A DNA stretch of 64,000 nt from Urbifossiella limnaea (lineage in GTDB: Bacteria > Planctomycetota > Planctomycetia > Gemmatales > Gemmataceae): contig NZ_CP036273.1 in the NCBI RefSeq assembly GCF_007747215.1, forward strand, positions 3,270,322 to 3,334,321. The letters run 5' to 3'. The notes beneath the pieces were generated by a model, which saw nothing but the letters and a program-made list of their open reading frames with translations, had not been told where the DNA came from and did not search any database. Of this stretch, positions 20,164-26,938 are shown one piece after another. Both the position numbers and the translations under genes were made by a program. Position 1 is the first letter of the stretch; each line of letters opens with the position of its first letter.

Positions 20164-21201
20164 ATGCCGACCCCGCCCGCCGACCGCCTCGCGTTCGCCC
20201 GGGACGTGCTGCGCGCCGAGGCCGCGGCCGTCGCCGGCGTCGCCGACCGGCTCGGGGCGTCGTTCCTCGCCGCCGTCGAAGCGCTCCTCCACTGCCGCGG
20301 CCGAGTCGCCGTCGTGGGCGTCGGCAAGTCGGCCGACGTGGGGGCGAAGATCGCCGGCACGCTCAACTCGACCGGCACCCGCGCCTACACCCTCGACGCC
20401 ACCCGCGCCGTTCACGGCGACCTGGGCATGGTTCACGCCGACGACGCAGCGCTGCTCCTCTCCCACAGCGGTGAGTCGGACGAGATCGTCCGTCTGATCG
20501 GGCCGCTCCGCAAACTCGCCTCCGCGCTCGTCGGCGTCACCGGCAACCCAGCCGGCACCCTGGCCCGGTGTGCCGACATTGCGGTGGTGTACGGCCCCGT
20601 CCAGGAGGCGTGCCCGCTGGCGCTTGCCCCGAGTTCCAGCACGACCGTCATGCTCGCACTCGGCGACGCGGTCGCGTTCACGCTCCTCCAAGAACGCCGC
20701 TTCACGGCCGAGGACTTCGCCCGATACCACCCGGCCGGCAGCCTCGGCCGCCGGCTTGCCACCGTGTCCGACGTGATGCGGACCGGCCGCGAACTCCGCA
20801 TCGCCCCCGCCGCGGCGACCGTCCGCGAGGTGTTCGCGCGGGTGCATCACGAGGGCCGCCGCACCGGTGCCGTGATGCTCGTCGACGACGCCGGCCGACT
20901 CGCCGGACTGTTCACCGACAGCGACCTGGCCCGGCTGTTCGAGGCCCGCCGCGACGGCTCGATGGACGAGCCGGTCGAACGGGTCATGACGCGGGCGCCG
21001 GTCGTGACCGGCGTCGGCGCACGGGTCGGGGAGGCGCTCGACATCCTGCGGGCGCGGAAGTTCAGCGAGCTGCCGGTCGTGGACGACGACGGCCGGCCCG
21101 TCGGCATGATCGACATCACCGACCTGATCGGGCTCGCGCCGCCGTCCGTTCCGGCGGAAACTCGCCCGCCGCTCCGCCTCGCCGACCGCCGCAGCGCGTA
21201 G
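20164..21201 (+). CDS. kdsD: Arabinose-5-phosphate isomerase
   Basis: Converts ribulose-5-phosphate to arabinose-5-phosphate, the first step to Kdo for LPS. The N-terminal SIS domain holds VAVVGVGKSADVGAKIAGTLNSTG, LLLSHSGESDEIV and ALAPSSSTT, and a GSLGRR signature follows. Two CBS domains make up residues about 205-335 (VMRTGRELRIA..., VMTRAPVV... and FSELPVVDDDGRPVGMIDITDL). At 345 residues it is a full-length KdsD. It starts a tight plus-strand unit with kdsC (1-bp gap) and the giant Lpt-like gene, the same functional order as E. coli kdsD-kdsC-lptC-lptA. Confidence 0.94.
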   Translation: MPTPPADRLAFARDVLRAEAAAVAGVADRLGASFLAAVEALLHCRGRVAVVGVGKSADVGAKIAGTLNSTGTRAYTLDATRAVHGDLGMVHADDAALLLSHSGESDEIVRLIGPLRKLASALVGVTGNPAGTLARCADIAVVYGPVQEACPLALAPSSSTTVMLALGDAVAFTLLQERRFTAEDFARYHPAGSLGRRLATVSDVMRTGRELRIAPAAATVREVFARVHHEGRRTGAVMLVDDAGRLAGLFTDSDLARLFEARRDGSMDEPVERVMTRAPVVTGVGARVGEALDILRARKFSELPVVDDDGRPVGMIDITDLIGLAPPSVPAETRPPLRLADRRSA

Positions 21202-21202
21202 G

Positions 21203-21748
21203 ATGCACCACTCTCCCCCGGCACTGATGCCCGACCTCGCCGCCCGTGCCGCCCGAATCCGGCTGCTGCTCCTCGACGTGGACGGCGTGCTGACAGACGG
21301 CCGCATCGTGTACTCCGACGACGGCACCGAGGTGAAGCGGTTCCACGTCCGCGACGGCTCGGGGTTGAAGTTCTGGCGCGACGCCGGTAAGCGGGCTGCG
21401 ATTGTGTCGGGCAGAAGTTCCGCGGCCGTGACCCGCCGCGCGGCTGAGTTGGGGATCGCGCCGGTGCTGCAGGCGCAAGCGGACAAGGTGCCGGCGTTCG
21501 AGCGAGTGCTGGCCGAGGTCGGCGTGTCGGCCGACGATGTGTGTGCGATCGGCGACGACCTGCCGGACCTTCCCGTGCTGTTGCGAGCCGGATTGGCCGT
21601 GGCGGTAGCCGACGCGGCACCCGAGGTTCGTTCCGCGGCCGATTACGTGACCGCGGCGCCGGGCGGGGCCGGGGCGGTCCGCGAAGCGATCGAGTGGCTG
21701 ATGACGCTGACCGGCGAGTGGCAGCGGGTTGTCGCGTCGTTCCGCTGA
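21203..21748 (+). CDS. kdsC: 3-deoxy-D-manno-octulosonate 8-phosphate phosphatase
   Basis: HAD phosphatase without a cap domain that releases Kdo. Motif I is LLLDVDGVLTDGRI, motif II IVSGRSSAAV, and the C-terminal acidic motif is CAIGDDLPDLPVL; KRFHVRDGSGLKFW between them is typical of KdsC tetramers. It has 181 residues from the ATG at 21203; a second ATG at residue 9 could also serve as start. Its position between kdsD and the Lpt-like gene fixes the assignment. Confidence 0.94.
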   Translation: MHHSPPALMPDLAARAARIRLLLLDVDGVLTDGRIVYSDDGTEVKRFHVRDGSGLKFWRDAGKRAAIVSGRSSAAVTRRAAELGIAPVLQAQADKVPAFERVLAEVGVSADDVCAIGDDLPDLPVLLRAGLAVAVADAAPEVRSAADYVTAAPGGAGAVREAIEWLMTLTGEWQRVVASFR

Positions 21749-21763
21749 CGGGGGCAAGCGATC

Positions 21764-24700
21764 GTGTGGACGCCGCGGCGGGTTCTGCTCCTTCTCGCCG
21801 GTACCGCGCTGTTCGCCGCGGTGTACGGGGCGTACGCCGGCGCCCTCGGCTGGATCGACGGCCTGCCACAACTCCCGGCCAAGGCGCTGGCCCGTTCCGA
21901 CGGTACGTTCCGGCCGCCCGAGCGGCCGGTGCTGCCGACGGTGCAACTCCTCCGCGAGGCGTTCGGCCCCGGCTGTGAGGAGGAGAACACCACCACCTAC
22001 GCAAACCAGTTCACGTTCAAGAGCGGCGACTCGTGGGTCGTCGTGGCCACCGGGCGGGTGCCGAACCCGGACGGCAAGTCGGTCACGCTCAGCCCGTTCA
22101 GCGTCGCCGTGTTCGGGAAGCCGAAGCCGCCGCACCTGCGGGCGCCGGGCGAGGTGTCCGAGGTCAGCACGTTCCACGCCGACAAGGCCGTGCTGGAGTT
22201 CGACCGGGTCGTGACGGGCCTGGCCGACATGGTCAAGGCGAAGGTGCTGCGGCTCGAACTCGTCAGCGACCCCGAGGCGACGACCGCGGACAAGCGGCGC
22301 GGCCTCGTCCACATCACCAACAACCAGCGCACCTCCGACCCGAACCGGTCGCTGGTGGTGCGGACGCCCGGCCCCGTGTTCTACCGCGACCCGAAGAACG
22401 CGGACCGCAAGGCCGCCGGCCCGGACGTGTGGACCGACGCGGCGATCGAGGTGGTCGATAAGCAGAACCTGCCGCGGGCCTACGGCGCCCCGGCGCCGCC
22501 GACGGCGACCACGCGGGCCAAGGATTTGCAGGACGCCGGAGTCGTGCCCGACATCCTCTCCGGCCGCCGCTTCCCGCCGCCGACGGTGACGGCCGTCGGC
22601 CTCAAGGTGTTTCTCGAAGACAAGGACGCGAAGCTCGTCGCGGTCAAGAAGGGCTCGGCCGGCTTCTCCGGCGTCCGCCGCCTGGAACTCGGCGAGAAGG
22701 TGCTGCTGAACCTGTGGGTGGACGCGCGGCAGTCCGTGATGGCGAGCCCCGGAGGGGCGACGAGTCCGCTCAGCGTCGTCGAGGAACCGCCGGCCGCGGC
22801 CGCGGTCGTCGGCGGGCTGTTCGCGGCCGTCCAGTCCGTCCGCCGGCTCGACCGCGCGCTGTTGCAGATCGAGACGCTCGGCCCATTCGCTTACGACGCG
22901 GAGAAGAACGTCGGCCGGTTCGACGTGGTGCCCGCGGCCGAGGCGGGGGTGCAGGATTACGTGCAGGTCCACAAGCTGCCGCCGCGGGGCGGGACCCAGC
23001 GGTTGTTCAGCCAGGTGCTCGAGATCGAGTTCAACGGCCCGCCGACCGGCGGTAAGGCGCCCGAGCCGAAGGCGGCCGGGGCGGGGCCGTCGTTCAAGGA
23101 GCTGCGGGCGTGGACGTACACCCCGGGCCGACTCGTCATGGTGTCGTCCGACGCGGACCGGCTCAACGCCTTTGGCACGAAGTTGGTCCACGACGAGACG
23201 TCCAACAAGTCGGTGCTGACCGGCGCGCCTCTGACGGCGATCCGCGGTAACGAGGCGCGGGCCGACAAGAAGGAAGCCGGCGAGAGCGTGCTGACCGCCG
23301 GCGCCGCCGGCCGCCCCGCGACGCTCACGATGACCAGCACTACGACAGGCGCGAAAAAGTCCACGGCGGCACTGATCGAGGGCGCCGGCACGATGAAGCT
23401 GTTCGACCCGAACAGCGGCACGCAGTCGGTTGAGGCGGCGTGGGCGCAGTCGATGTCGCACACGCGCGAGACCGCCCAGAACCGCGAACTGGACCTCCTC
23501 ACGTTCACTGGCGCCGCGTCGTTCGACGATCGCAAGGCTGATTTTTGGCTGAAAGGGAACGTGCTGAAACTGTGGCTCGACCCGGCTGCGGGCCAGGGCG
23601 GCGGCCAACCGCTGCCGCACCAGGTGCAGGCGCTCGGCGACGTGTCGAGCCACTCGACGGACTACGACATCGAGCGGGCCGACCACCTCAATGTGGTATT
23701 CACGGAGGGCGTGAACACCCCAACCGTGCGGCCCGCGGCGCCAACTCCCGCGGCTCCGGCACAGCCCGTCACGGCGCAACCGAATTCGCCGACTCCAGCC
23801 CCCGCGGTCGCGTCCGCACCACAGCCGAAAGAGGAGCCGCGGCCGAAACCGCCAATCCGCATCCGCGCCCGACTCATCAACACAACCGTCGAGCGGGTCG
23901 CCTTCAAGAACGACTTCGAGGGGCTGGACCGGCCCGGCACGAAGATGCCCGGCCTCTCGCCGTCCGACCCGGTGTCGCGGACGCCGACCGGCGGTACGAA
24001 GTATCAGCTGAAGCACGTCAGCTGTGAGGGGAGCGATAAGGTTCGCGGCCAGGACGCGCCGCTCGTCCACCAGGACCCGACCGACCCGGGCAAGCAGCCC
24101 CGTGGCATCGACATCTACGGCACGAGTCTGCACCTCGACCAGACGCCGGACGGCGCCGTGATGACCGTGACCGGCGAAACCGGCCGTCCGGGGCAGGTGC
24201 ACCACGAAGGGATGTCCGTGGTCGGCCCGAAGGTCGTGATCGACCAACTGCGAAACCGACTGTCCGTCGAGGGGGGTGGGTCGCTGGCGATGCCCGTGGG
24301 GAGTACGCTCGCCGGCAGCGAGCCGCAGAAAGCCCCCGTGGCCGCCGGCAAGAAGGACGCGCCGCCCGCGCCGCCCATCGTGATCCACTGGCGCGACGAA
24401 ATGCGGTTCGAGGGGGCGCTGAAGACGGCGGAGTTCATCGGCCGGGTGCGGACGATTCAGGGTGAAGCGTCGGTGGTGTGCCACACCATGCAGGTGTTCT
24501 TCGACAAGCCGGTGGTGTTCAACCCGGCCCGCCCGGCGGGGGCCACCCCCGGCCCGCGCGGCGACGCGAAGATCGATCGCGTGTACTGCTACAACGCCCC
24601 GGGTGACGCCCCCGACGAACCACGCGACGCCCACGAAGTGCATTACACCGAGGTGCAGCGCGACCCCACCGGCCGGCTCACGAAGTGGCAATTCCTCCGC

Positions 24701-25369
24701 TCCGCTTCGCTGGAAATGACGGCCAAGACTGCGGACGCCCCCGGCCAGGAACCGTATCAGCAGCTACTCGCCACCGGTCCCGGCGAGGTCCGCATCTGGC
24801 AGTACGGCGAGAAGAACGTCTCTCGGGCGCAGCCCTCCACCCAACCGATGACACCCCCCGTCCGCCCCGCGCCGGCCGAGGGTGAGATGAAGCTCACCGT
24901 GGTGAAGTTCGCCGGCCGCATGGTGGCCAAGGACAAGGGCCGGCTGTACCAGGAGGCGGAGTTCTTCACGGAACAGAACGGAAGCGCGCCGATCGAGGTC
25001 GTCCACGCCCCCGCGTCCGAGCCCGGCGCCGCGATCGCACCGGCGAACCCGCCGGTCGGCACCGTCACGCTTCGGTGCGCCGAGCGGCTGGTGGTGTCCA
25101 CCCACCGCCCGGAGGGGCAGCCCGCGGCCCAGCGGATGGATGCTTACGGGAACGTCTTCATTCGGTCCGACGAGTACGACGGCTGGGGCGAGGTGGTGAA
25201 TTCGGACGGCCGGTACGTCACGCTGTCGGCGGCCGGCAACGCCCTGGCGCGTATCACCCACCGGTTCAACGGCAGCGGCAACATCGCGCGGCGGATCGTT
25301 TACGACCGGGCGACCGGCGACTACCGCGTCACCGAGAGTGCAGGGGCAACGATCCAGCCGCCCCGCTGA
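21764..25369 (+). CDS. Giant LptC/LptA (OstA)-like LPS-transport protein, putative
   Basis: A 1201-residue protein starting at GTG, 15 bp after kdsC. One N-terminal membrane segment (LLLLAGTALFAAVYGAYAGAL) is followed by an LptC-like beta region, a long middle region of beta-rich repeats, a Pro/Ala linker at about 652-697, and a C-terminal OstA/LptA-like part (about 790-1201) with repeats such as KTAEFIGRVRTIQGEASVVCHTMQVFFD and QRMDAYGNVFIRSDEYDGWGEVV. E. coli LptC and LptA are about 190 and 185 residues, so this would be a single-chain bridge several times longer. The assignment rests on synteny with kdsDC and motif style, not on strong identity. Confidence 0.62.
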   Translation: MWTPRRVLLLLAGTALFAAVYGAYAGALGWIDGLPQLPAKALARSDGTFRPPERPVLPTVQLLREAFGPGCEEENTTTYANQFTFKSGDSWVVVATGRVPNPDGKSVTLSPFSVAVFGKPKPPHLRAPGEVSEVSTFHADKAVLEFDRVVTGLADMVKAKVLRLELVSDPEATTADKRRGLVHITNNQRTSDPNRSLVVRTPGPVFYRDPKNADRKAAGPDVWTDAAIEVVDKQNLPRAYGAPAPPTATTRAKDLQDAGVVPDILSGRRFPPPTVTAVGLKVFLEDKDAKLVAVKKGSAGFSGVRRLELGEKVLLNLWVDARQSVMASPGGATSPLSVVEEPPAAAAVVGGLFAAVQSVRRLDRALLQIETLGPFAYDAEKNVGRFDVVPAAEAGVQDYVQVHKLPPRGGTQRLFSQVLEIEFNGPPTGGKAPEPKAAGAGPSFKELRAWTYTPGRLVMVSSDADRLNAFGTKLVHDETSNKSVLTGAPLTAIRGNEARADKKEAGESVLTAGAAGRPATLTMTSTTTGAKKSTAALIEGAGTMKLFDPNSGTQSVEAAWAQSMSHTRETAQNRELDLLTFTGAASFDDRKADFWLKGNVLKLWLDPAAGQGGGQPLPHQVQALGDVSSHSTDYDIERADHLNVVFTEGVNTPTVRPAAPTPAAPAQPVTAQPNSPTPAPAVASAPQPKEEPRPKPPIRIRARLINTTVERVAFKNDFEGLDRPGTKMPGLSPSDPVSRTPTGGTKYQLKHVSCEGSDKVRGQDAPLVHQDPTDPGKQPRGIDIYGTSLHLDQTPDGAVMTVTGETGRPGQVHHEGMSVVGPKVVIDQLRNRLSVEGGGSLAMPVGSTLAGSEPQKAPVAAGKKDAPPAPPIVIHWRDEMRFEGALKTAEFIGRVRTIQGEASVVCHTMQVFFDKPVVFNPARPAGATPGPRGDAKIDRVYCYNAPGDAPDEPRDAHEVHYTEVQRDPTGRLTKWQFLRSASLEMTAKTADAPGQEPYQQLLATGPGEVRIWQYGEKNVSRAQPSTQPMTPPVRPAPAEGEMKLTVVKFAGRMVAKDKGRLYQEAEFFTEQNGSAPIEVVHAPASEPGAAIAPANPPVGTVTLRCAERLVVSTHRPEGQPAAQRMDAYGNVFIRSDEYDGWGEVVNSDGRYVTLSAAGNALARITHRFNGSGNIARRIVYDRATGDYRVTESAGATIQPPR

Positions 25370-25374
25370 GCCGC

Positions 25375-25436
25375 GCGGGGGTGGGAGGGCGACGGGGTGA
25401 CACCCGGGTGTCACCCCGTCGCCCTCCCACCCCCGC
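25375..25436. repeat. 62-bp perfect palindrome after the giant Lpt-like gene
   Basis: Bases 25375-25405 and 25406-25436 are exact reverse complements (31-bp arms, no spacer; centre CACCC|GGGTG). It lies 5 bp past the stop codon and 72 bp before mgtE. It could act as a terminator or mRNA 3' stabiliser, but there is no T-tract and the perfection is unusual for a terminator. Confidence 0.7.
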
Positions 25437-25507
25437 ACCCCTTCACGGGTTCCCCGTCACGTCCCACAACACACCAGTAGGCTTACAACCTCCACTAGGA
25501 GGGGCCG

Positions 25508-26938
25508 ATGCCGCACCCGCTGTTCACCCCCGAAGTCCGGATGATGCTCCAGGAGCGGAGCGACGCCGGGCTGCGCGAGTTTTGCGAGTCGCTCCATCCG
25601 GCCACCGTCGCCGAGGCGCTGGACGACGACTTCACCCCCGAGCAGGTGTGGGAGGCGATCAGCCACGCCGACATCCGCACCCAGGCGTCGGTGTTCGAGT
25701 ACCTGCCGCCGGCCCGGCAGGTCGAGATGATCGAGAAGGCCCGCCCGCAGGTCGGCCAGCTGCTCGGCAAGATGTCCCACGACGACCGCGTCGATCTCGT
25801 CCGCCGCCTCCCGGAGGACGTTCACGAGAAGCTGCTCCGGCTGGTGGACGAGGCCGACCGCCGCGACATCGCCACCCTCGGCCAGTACGGCGCGGACACC
25901 GTCGGCGCGATGATGACGACCGACTACGCCTGGCTCCCCGGCACCCTGACCGCGGCCGAGGCCATCGACCAACTCCGCCAGCAAGCCCCCGACCGCGAGA
26001 CGATCTACTACGTGTACGTCCTCGACGAGGCGGCCCGGAAGCCCGACGGCACGCTCGCCCCGCGGCGGCTCCTCGGCGTGGTGTCGCTGCGCGACCTGAT
26101 CCTCGCCCCGCGGCACGCCCTGATCCGAGACCTGATGGAGAGCGAGGTCGAGGCCTTGCGGTACGACGAGGACCGGGAGGCGGTGGCGAAGCTGTTCGCG
26201 CGGTACGACCTCATCGCCGTGCCGGTCGTGGACGACCGGTTCGGCCTCCTCGGCATCGTCACCCACGACGACGTGCTCGACGTCGTCCAGGCCGAGGCGA
26301 CGGAGGACTTGCAACGACAGGCCGGCGTCGGCCGTATCGAGGGGACCTACCTGGAGGCGTCGTTCCGGCAGGTGTGGCTGAGCCGGGCCGTGTGGCTGGT
26401 GTTTCTATTCCTCATGCAGATGGTCACGATCAACGTGATGGCCCATTACGAGGGAAAGCTCGACGGCGGGGCGGGGCGGCCCGACGGCCGCGGGCTGGCG
26501 TTCCTGATCGTGTTCATCCCGCTGTGCCTGTCGGTGGGCGGGAACGCCGGCTCGCAGGCCTCGACGCTCGTAACCCGTGCGCTGGCGCTCGAACAGATTC
26601 GGGCGCGGGACTGGCTGCGGGTGTTCCGCCGGGAACTGCTCATGGCTCTCGCCCTCGCCGCGGCGCTCGGCGTCCTTTCGGTCGCGCGAACGTACTGGTT
26701 CACGCCCACGGACGTGCTGGTGAAGGTGCCCGACGACGGGTTCTGGAGCCTGGTGTGGGTGGTGACGTTTTCCGTCATGGGCATCTGCCTGACCGGCGCG
26801 CTCGTCGGCGCTATGCTGCCGCTCGGAATCAAGTCGATCGGGTGGGACCCGGCACTGATGTCCGGGCCGCTCATCGCCACGCTGTCGGACGTGCTCGGCA
26901 TCATCATCTACTTCAGCATCATCGGCCTGTTCTTCTGA
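25508..26938 (+). CDS. mgtE: Magnesium transporter MgtE
   Basis: Mg2+-gated channel in the inner membrane. The 476 residues show the usual order: MgtE N domain (LHPATVAEALDDDFTPEQVWEAI..., residues about 30-130), two CBS domains (about 135-260: TTDYAWLPGTLTAAEAIDQLR and LIAVPVVDDRFGLLGIVTHDDVLDV), a plug helix, and five C-terminal membrane segments including VFIPLCLSVGGNAGSQAST, the pore-signature region. An AGGAGG ribosome site precedes the start by a few bases. A second Mg2+ system, CorA, is at 36.9 kb. Confidence 0.95.
   Translation: MPHPLFTPEVRMMLQERSDAGLREFCESLHPATVAEALDDDFTPEQVWEAISHADIRTQASVFEYLPPARQVEMIEKARPQVGQLLGKMSHDDRVDLVRRLPEDVHEKLLRLVDEADRRDIATLGQYGADTVGAMMTTDYAWLPGTLTAAEAIDQLRQQAPDRETIYYVYVLDEAARKPDGTLAPRRLLGVVSLRDLILAPRHALIRDLMESEVEALRYDEDREAVAKLFARYDLIAVPVVDDRFGLLGIVTHDDVLDVVQAEATEDLQRQAGVGRIEGTYLEASFRQVWLSRAVWLVFLFLMQMVTINVMAHYEGKLDGGAGRPDGRGLAFLIVFIPLCLSVGGNAGSQASTLVTRALALEQIRARDWLRVFRRELLMALALAAALGVLSVARTYWFTPTDVLVKVPDDGFWSLVWVVTFSVMGICLTGALVGAMLPLGIKSIGWDPALMSGPLIATLSDVLGIIIYFSIIGLFF

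Follow-up and report, generated by a model that had tools for sequence, protein, structure and literature searches.

The gene directly downstream of kdsD and kdsC in Urbifossiella limnaea very probably encodes the periplasmic bridge of the lipopolysaccharide transport (Lpt) system as one polypeptide, in which an LptC-like base is fused to a series of LptA-like units, LptC–(LptA)n. In most bacteria, the LptC-like base and the LptA-like units are separate small proteins that carry lipopolysaccharide (LPS) to the outer membrane. The Lpt system is already known; the one-chain bridge is new, and a literature search that lay mostly outside subscription papers and preprints turned up no paper that describes an LptC-LptA fusion in Planctomycetes.

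A survey of 903 genomes described the Lpt system as ‘largely reduced’ in Planctomycetes (PMC8871954), and Speth et al., who used LptD to mark LPS insertion, reported it in all Planctomycetes then published (PMC3422733). The analysis presented here suggests that the planctomycete counterparts of LptC and LptA are present but fused, and that they have diverged beyond the reach of single-sequence searches.

The locus and its Lpt partners

The window, that is, the whole stretch of DNA analysed, comprises 64,000 nucleotides. Within it, kdsD, kdsC and a reading frame of 1,201 codons with a GTG start lie head to tail (Table 1). The end of kdsD and the start of kdsC are 1 bp apart, and 15 bp separate the kdsC stop from the start of the long gene. 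This arrangement had been claimed in an earlier note on the sequence, and it is borne out by the reading frame coordinates and by the TIGR00393 and TIGR01670 matches. The codon-position GC of the long gene (0.69/0.51/0.91) indicates that the plus strand is coding. A minus-strand frame of 1,191 aa (21116-24691), which covers most of the long gene on the opposite strand, was rejected on codon-position GC as a GC shadow. The next gene downstream is mgtE, at 25508, and the inverted repeat that precedes it overlaps the long gene's stop codon.

Table 1. Features of the kdsD-kdsC locus and of the long protein, with positions in the window
Feature	Position	Strand	Evidence
kdsD, arabinose-5-phosphate isomerase (SIS + 2 CBS)	20164..21201	+	TIGR00393 243 bits (cut-off 203.7); Pfam SIS, CBS
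kdsC, Kdo-8-phosphate phosphatase	21203..21748	+	TIGR01670 156 bits (cut-off 106.95)
Probable single-chain LptC-LptA-like bridge protein, 1201 aa	21764..25369	+	ORF, homology, profile alignment, model
N-terminal membrane helix, residues 4-31	21773..21856	+	hydropathy, model helix 4-31, conservation
LptC-like domain, residues 103-288	22070..22627	+	hhalign to LptC profile, probability 42-84% by column choice
OstA/LptA-like stretch 1, residues 371-514	22874..23305	+	hhalign probability 96.6-97.4
OstA/LptA-like stretch 2, residues 473-591 (overlaps neighbours)	23180..23536	+	hhalign probability 52-62
OstA/LptA-like stretch 3, residues 577-647	23492..23704	+	hhalign probability 79-90
Proline-rich linker, residues 657-696	23732..23851	+	14 Pro in 40 residues
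OstA/LptA-like stretch 4, residues 748-828	24005..24247	+	hhalign probability 53-78
Predicted LptA jellyroll, residues 778-962	24095..24649	+	model of 690-1201 vs LptA 2r1a/2r19
OstA/LptA-like stretch 5, residues 876-1018	24389..24817	+	hhalign probability 94-95; hmmsearch 873-915
OstA/LptA-like stretch 6, residues 1063-1182	24950..25309	+	hhalign probability 97-98; PF03968 at equivalent place in orthologues
44-nt inverted repeat, possible transcript end before mgtE	25362..25449		arms 86% complementary, no spacer

The long gene is no chance occurrence in the family. Of 61 Gemmataceae genomes searched, 57 have a homologue, among them each of the 44 that are of good quality; the homologues are single reading frames of 1019-1330 aa. 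In all but a few of 42 Gemmataceae loci, kdsC lies directly upstream, usually less than 120 bp away. A gene-neighbourhood survey had been suggested as a check, and its outcome favours the original claim: it is the long gene itself that follows kdsC, and a search of the U. limnaea genome revealed no lptC of normal size.

The order kdsD-kdsC-lptC-lptA-lptB, to which this locus had been compared, is confirmed at the E. coli locus. The reported absence of lptB stands for the kdsD-kdsC locus of U. limnaea but not for its genome, where LptB is encoded at C1:637291-638022 (308 bits, cut-off 240). The genome also encodes LptF/LptG (C1:942560 and C1:4015141-4016232), an LptD of ~950 aa as a separate gene (C1:1828110-1830671), and LpxC (C1:2649146-2649958). 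With KdsD and KdsC added, it holds LptB, LptF/G and LptD alongside an LPS pathway. Every one of the 21 good-quality Gemmataceae genomes sampled has matches to LptF/G, LptD and LpxC; LptB scored above its cut-off in 24 of 26 genomes. Two of these partners have unusual lengths. This LptB (L253:2632-4173) has a long proline-rich C-terminal extension, giving 513 aa from the first start where ~240 aa is normal, and many of the Gemmataceae sampled likewise have long LptB frames, of 360-600 codons. LpxC sits in an open frame of 710 codons, far longer than LpxC alone, and is perhaps fused to another domain.

Architecture of the long protein

As a single sequence, the window protein gave no match in Pfam, NCBIfam or PDB searches, and its relationship to LptA emerges from its orthologues. 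PF03968 (LptA/LptD_N) matches 24 of 32 orthologues, with a best E-value of 4.6e-15. A local OstA HMM, derived from E. coli LptA together with OstA segments from other Planctomycetota, matched 41 of 43 Gemmataceae orthologues and the window protein itself (2.9e-7, Z=10000). With the same HMM, 501 neighbouring control ORFs yielded no match at E<=1e-3, nor did any sequence that had been reversed or shuffled. Two further matches were set aside: the only PF03968 match in the U. limnaea genome (C1:3912348; 13.4 bits, E 0.45) falls in a low-complexity, repetitive ORF, and the single match of the family profile in an hmmsearch against PDB sequences was judged to be due to chance.

The earlier note had placed a single membrane anchor at the N terminus, and this description holds. 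By hydropathy, residues ~6-26 form the sole hydrophobic segment, and the rest of the protein has no window resembling a transmembrane segment. The membrane helix lies after R5/R6, which implies an N-in orientation, and a conserved LG-x-IDGLPPLP motif follows directly behind it. The earlier note had also located OstA repeats at the C-terminal end. They are indeed found there, but profile-profile alignment indicates that they also fill the middle of the protein, from residue ~371 to 1182, while reversed controls of this alignment gave nothing above 3.2%. The number of modules, about six OstA-like stretches, is approximate because the boundaries of the stretches overlap. The repeats are divergent and contain long insertions. 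By size and topology, the protein differs from LptA, which is soluble in the periplasm, has ~160-190 aa and forms oligomers; the long protein has 1201 aa and is anchored.

The assignment of the N-terminal region to LptC is of moderate strength in Gemmataceae, and draws on profile alignment, position, topology and clearer relatives elsewhere in the phylum. The LptC-like segment is placed by hhalign solely at the N terminus, as a moderate match (67-84% when majority columns are used and 41-56% when window columns are used), and the reversed control had no LptC match. Pfam LptC (PF06835) matched one of 32 orthologues weakly (0.0087) and did not match the window protein; a local LptC HMM matched no Gemmataceae orthologue.

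Structure prediction points in the same direction for part of the C-terminal half. A template-free AlphaFold2 model of residues 690-1201 has a mean pLDDT of 40.5 and is confident only in part. A Foldseek search of this model against the PDB nevertheless returned solved LptH/LptA structures as best matches (1.7e-4). In VIA-align, model residues 778-962 superpose on LptA (2r1a/2r19) with a Z of 12.4 and an rmsd of 3.1-3.2 over 126-127 residues. The strong matches are all Lpt jellyrolls, including those of LptA, LptC and LptD, and the first non-Lpt rows have a Z below 6. The beta-jellyroll fold that the earlier note proposed to look for is thus predicted for residues 778-962, in a model of low overall confidence that renders the other repeats poorly. 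For residues 1-664, the model (pLDDT 36.5) is too poor to judge a jellyroll, and the fold search gave no usable match. The low confidence arises because the AlphaFold2 input comprised three sequences.

Single-chain relatives across Planctomycetota

Clearer examples of the same architecture occur outside the family. In a survey of 119 Planctomycetota genomes with PF06835 and PF03968, the two families often matched within the same long reading frames. A relative of 664 aa in the same position matches Pfam LptC at 5.7e-19 and contains three OstA stretches (4.9e-20). Two others, of 1115 and 869 aa, match LptC at 1.1e-16 and 4.4e-11 and OstA at 2.4e-6 and 9.1e-16, respectively. These relatives, which carry both Pfam domains in one chain, together with the PF03968 matches among the orthologues, support the LptC/LptA-like identity first suggested for the long protein.

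A second survey started from kdsC, so that its loci were mostly not selected by LptC or OstA matches. In 32 of 53 loci, the gene after kdsC encodes a single chain, 500 aa or longer, that is matched by the OstA or the LptC HMM; the E-values of these matches refer to a set of only 51 sequences. Overall, single-chain LptC/OstA proteins of ~500–1,380 aa were recorded in ~41 of the 63 family-level groups of the phylum. The tally began with 64 genomes in 42 family-level groups, and the removal of two (G067 and G097) left 62 genomes in 40-41 groups, plus Gemmataceae. The two removed genomes have ORFs of ~755-760 aa away from kdsC, with an OstA match near the N terminus, that may be LptD. The order kdsD, kdsC, long gene likewise extends to much of the phylum. 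Much of the phylum appears to build its LPS bridge as a single chain.

Other arrangements exist alongside the giant chains. One genome (G086) has separate small genes: the one that follows kdsC encodes an LptC of 174 aa, and an LptA of 167 aa is encoded at a different place. In another (G076) kdsD, an LptC-like ORF, an LptA-like ORF (301 aa) and lptB lie in a row. In two genomes of family f12 (L249:1780-2931 and L251:1653-2804), kdsC is followed by a 384-aa protein with two Lpt-like matches to the local HMMs; Pfam was marginal in one and gave no match in the other. This protein resembles a compact two-module LptC-LptA chain, and a separate LptA-like gene of ~167 aa is present elsewhere. In two genomes of the same class (G103 and G122; L175 and L176), a KdsC match was not found and a long OstA gene lies directly after kdsD. 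In G088 (L215:1793-6604), the gene after kdsC encodes 1604 aa with an N-terminal hydrophobic segment and no OstA or LptC match, and is possibly a more diverged form. A single phylum offers a natural series, with separate genes at one end, as in G086, a compact chain in between and giant chains at the other end.

Proposed mechanism and alternative explanations

The LptC helix of E. coli is lodged between LptF and LptG, and LPS follows a single path made up of the jellyrolls of LptF, LptC, LptA and LptD (PMC9972910). The order within the long chain, with an LptC-like base followed by OstA modules, matches this path, and a one-piece bridge is therefore inferred. The N-terminal helix and LptC-like jellyroll would be seated on the LptB2FG exporter. 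The roughly six LptA/OstA-like stretches would continue from there, in the same chain, as an unbroken beta-jellyroll slide, the C-terminal end of which would dock on the LptD jellyroll at the outer membrane. LPS expelled by LptB2FG would then travel along the chain, and LptA oligomers would be needed little or not at all. The identity of LPS as the cargo, the docking to LptF/G and LptD, and the span of the full periplasm by one chain are features that the protein would be expected to have under this model. On paper, ~1,000 beta-rich residues amount to several LptA equivalents, which by an estimate from the size of LptA is enough to cross the periplasm.

A stronger form of this proposal is that one polypeptide in Planctomycetota alone joins LptB2FG to LptD without LptA oligomers, and that the number of OstA modules fixes the length of the bridge genetically. 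That number would vary by lineage (384, ~655 and ~1,000-1,380 aa), possibly with the width of the periplasm. This form is tentative, with chances slightly short of even. Because the gene itself sets how many units there are, a one-chain bridge would help to test whether the Lpt bridge has to be a continuous slide whose length is defined.

The main competing explanation divides the bridge among two or more proteins. The long protein would then provide LptC and part of the bridge, and one or more separate OstA-like proteins would act as the LptA link to LptD. A candidate is a proline-rich protein of 322 aa from an internal ATG (C1:2567420-2568385; L252:1421-2386), which has an OstA/LptA-like stretch at its C-terminal end. 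It ranks second in the whole genome by its match to the OstA alignment, has a weak PF03968 match (0.035), and is matched in 13 of 26 Gemmataceae genomes, U. limnaea included. However, that stretch is the only one it has, and the protein goes undetected in half of the genomes with the long protein, although divergence may hide it. A division of labour of this kind is judged unlikely. The small protein could possibly be an additional piece of the Lpt bridge, and its existence weakens the case for a bridge made wholly of one protein.

Two further explanations depart from LPS transport altogether. AsmA-like bridges are typically large single chains anchored at the N terminus, and AsmA, TamB and YhdP proteins carry phospholipids, so that the long protein might be a bridge for another lipid that lies beside kdsC by chance. 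This is very improbable: no Pfam match to AsmA, TamB or YhdP families was found among 32 orthologues, the sequence matches are to LptA/LptD_N and the structural matches to LptA, LptC and LptD, and the linkage to kdsD-kdsC is conserved. Marginally less probable again is that OstA repeats gave rise to a protein with a structural role, in the envelope or as a scaffold, that has lost lipid transport. Divergent repeats, long insertions and a proline-rich linker would suit such a protein, but its presence in every good-quality Gemmataceae genome, in an operon-like order with Kdo genes, would not. Nor would the way in which it fills the LptC/LptA gap beside an otherwise nearly complete Lpt set. The fused LptC–(LptA)n bridge remains the preferred explanation.

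Comparison with known systems brings out what is distinctive about this protein. Like E. coli LptC and LptA, it is encoded after kdsC and is predicted to have an N-terminally anchored LptC-like base followed by OstA jellyroll units. In E. coli, however, these are proteins of ~190 and ~185 aa, whereas Gemmataceae have one chain of 1019-1330 aa with about six OstA-like stretches, and lptB lies elsewhere. The N-terminal domain of LptD (PF03968) belongs to the same OstA/LptA domain family, but the long protein lacks an outer-membrane barrel and a separate LptD is encoded. The multi-domain OstA-like proteins of Bacteroidetes (PF13100, OstA_2) also carry more than one OstA unit per chain; unlike the long protein, they are not known to be fused to an LptC anchor and generally have a separate LptC alongside. 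TamB and YhdP share the idea of a large, single-chain bridge anchored in the inner membrane, but are built from other domain families. Finally, in Methylacidiphilum, from the related phylum Verrucomicrobia (PVC group), LptC and LptA are encoded by two adjacent, separate genes (Mfum_1153 and Mfum_1152; PMC10542722), in contrast to the one fused gene of the planctomycete.
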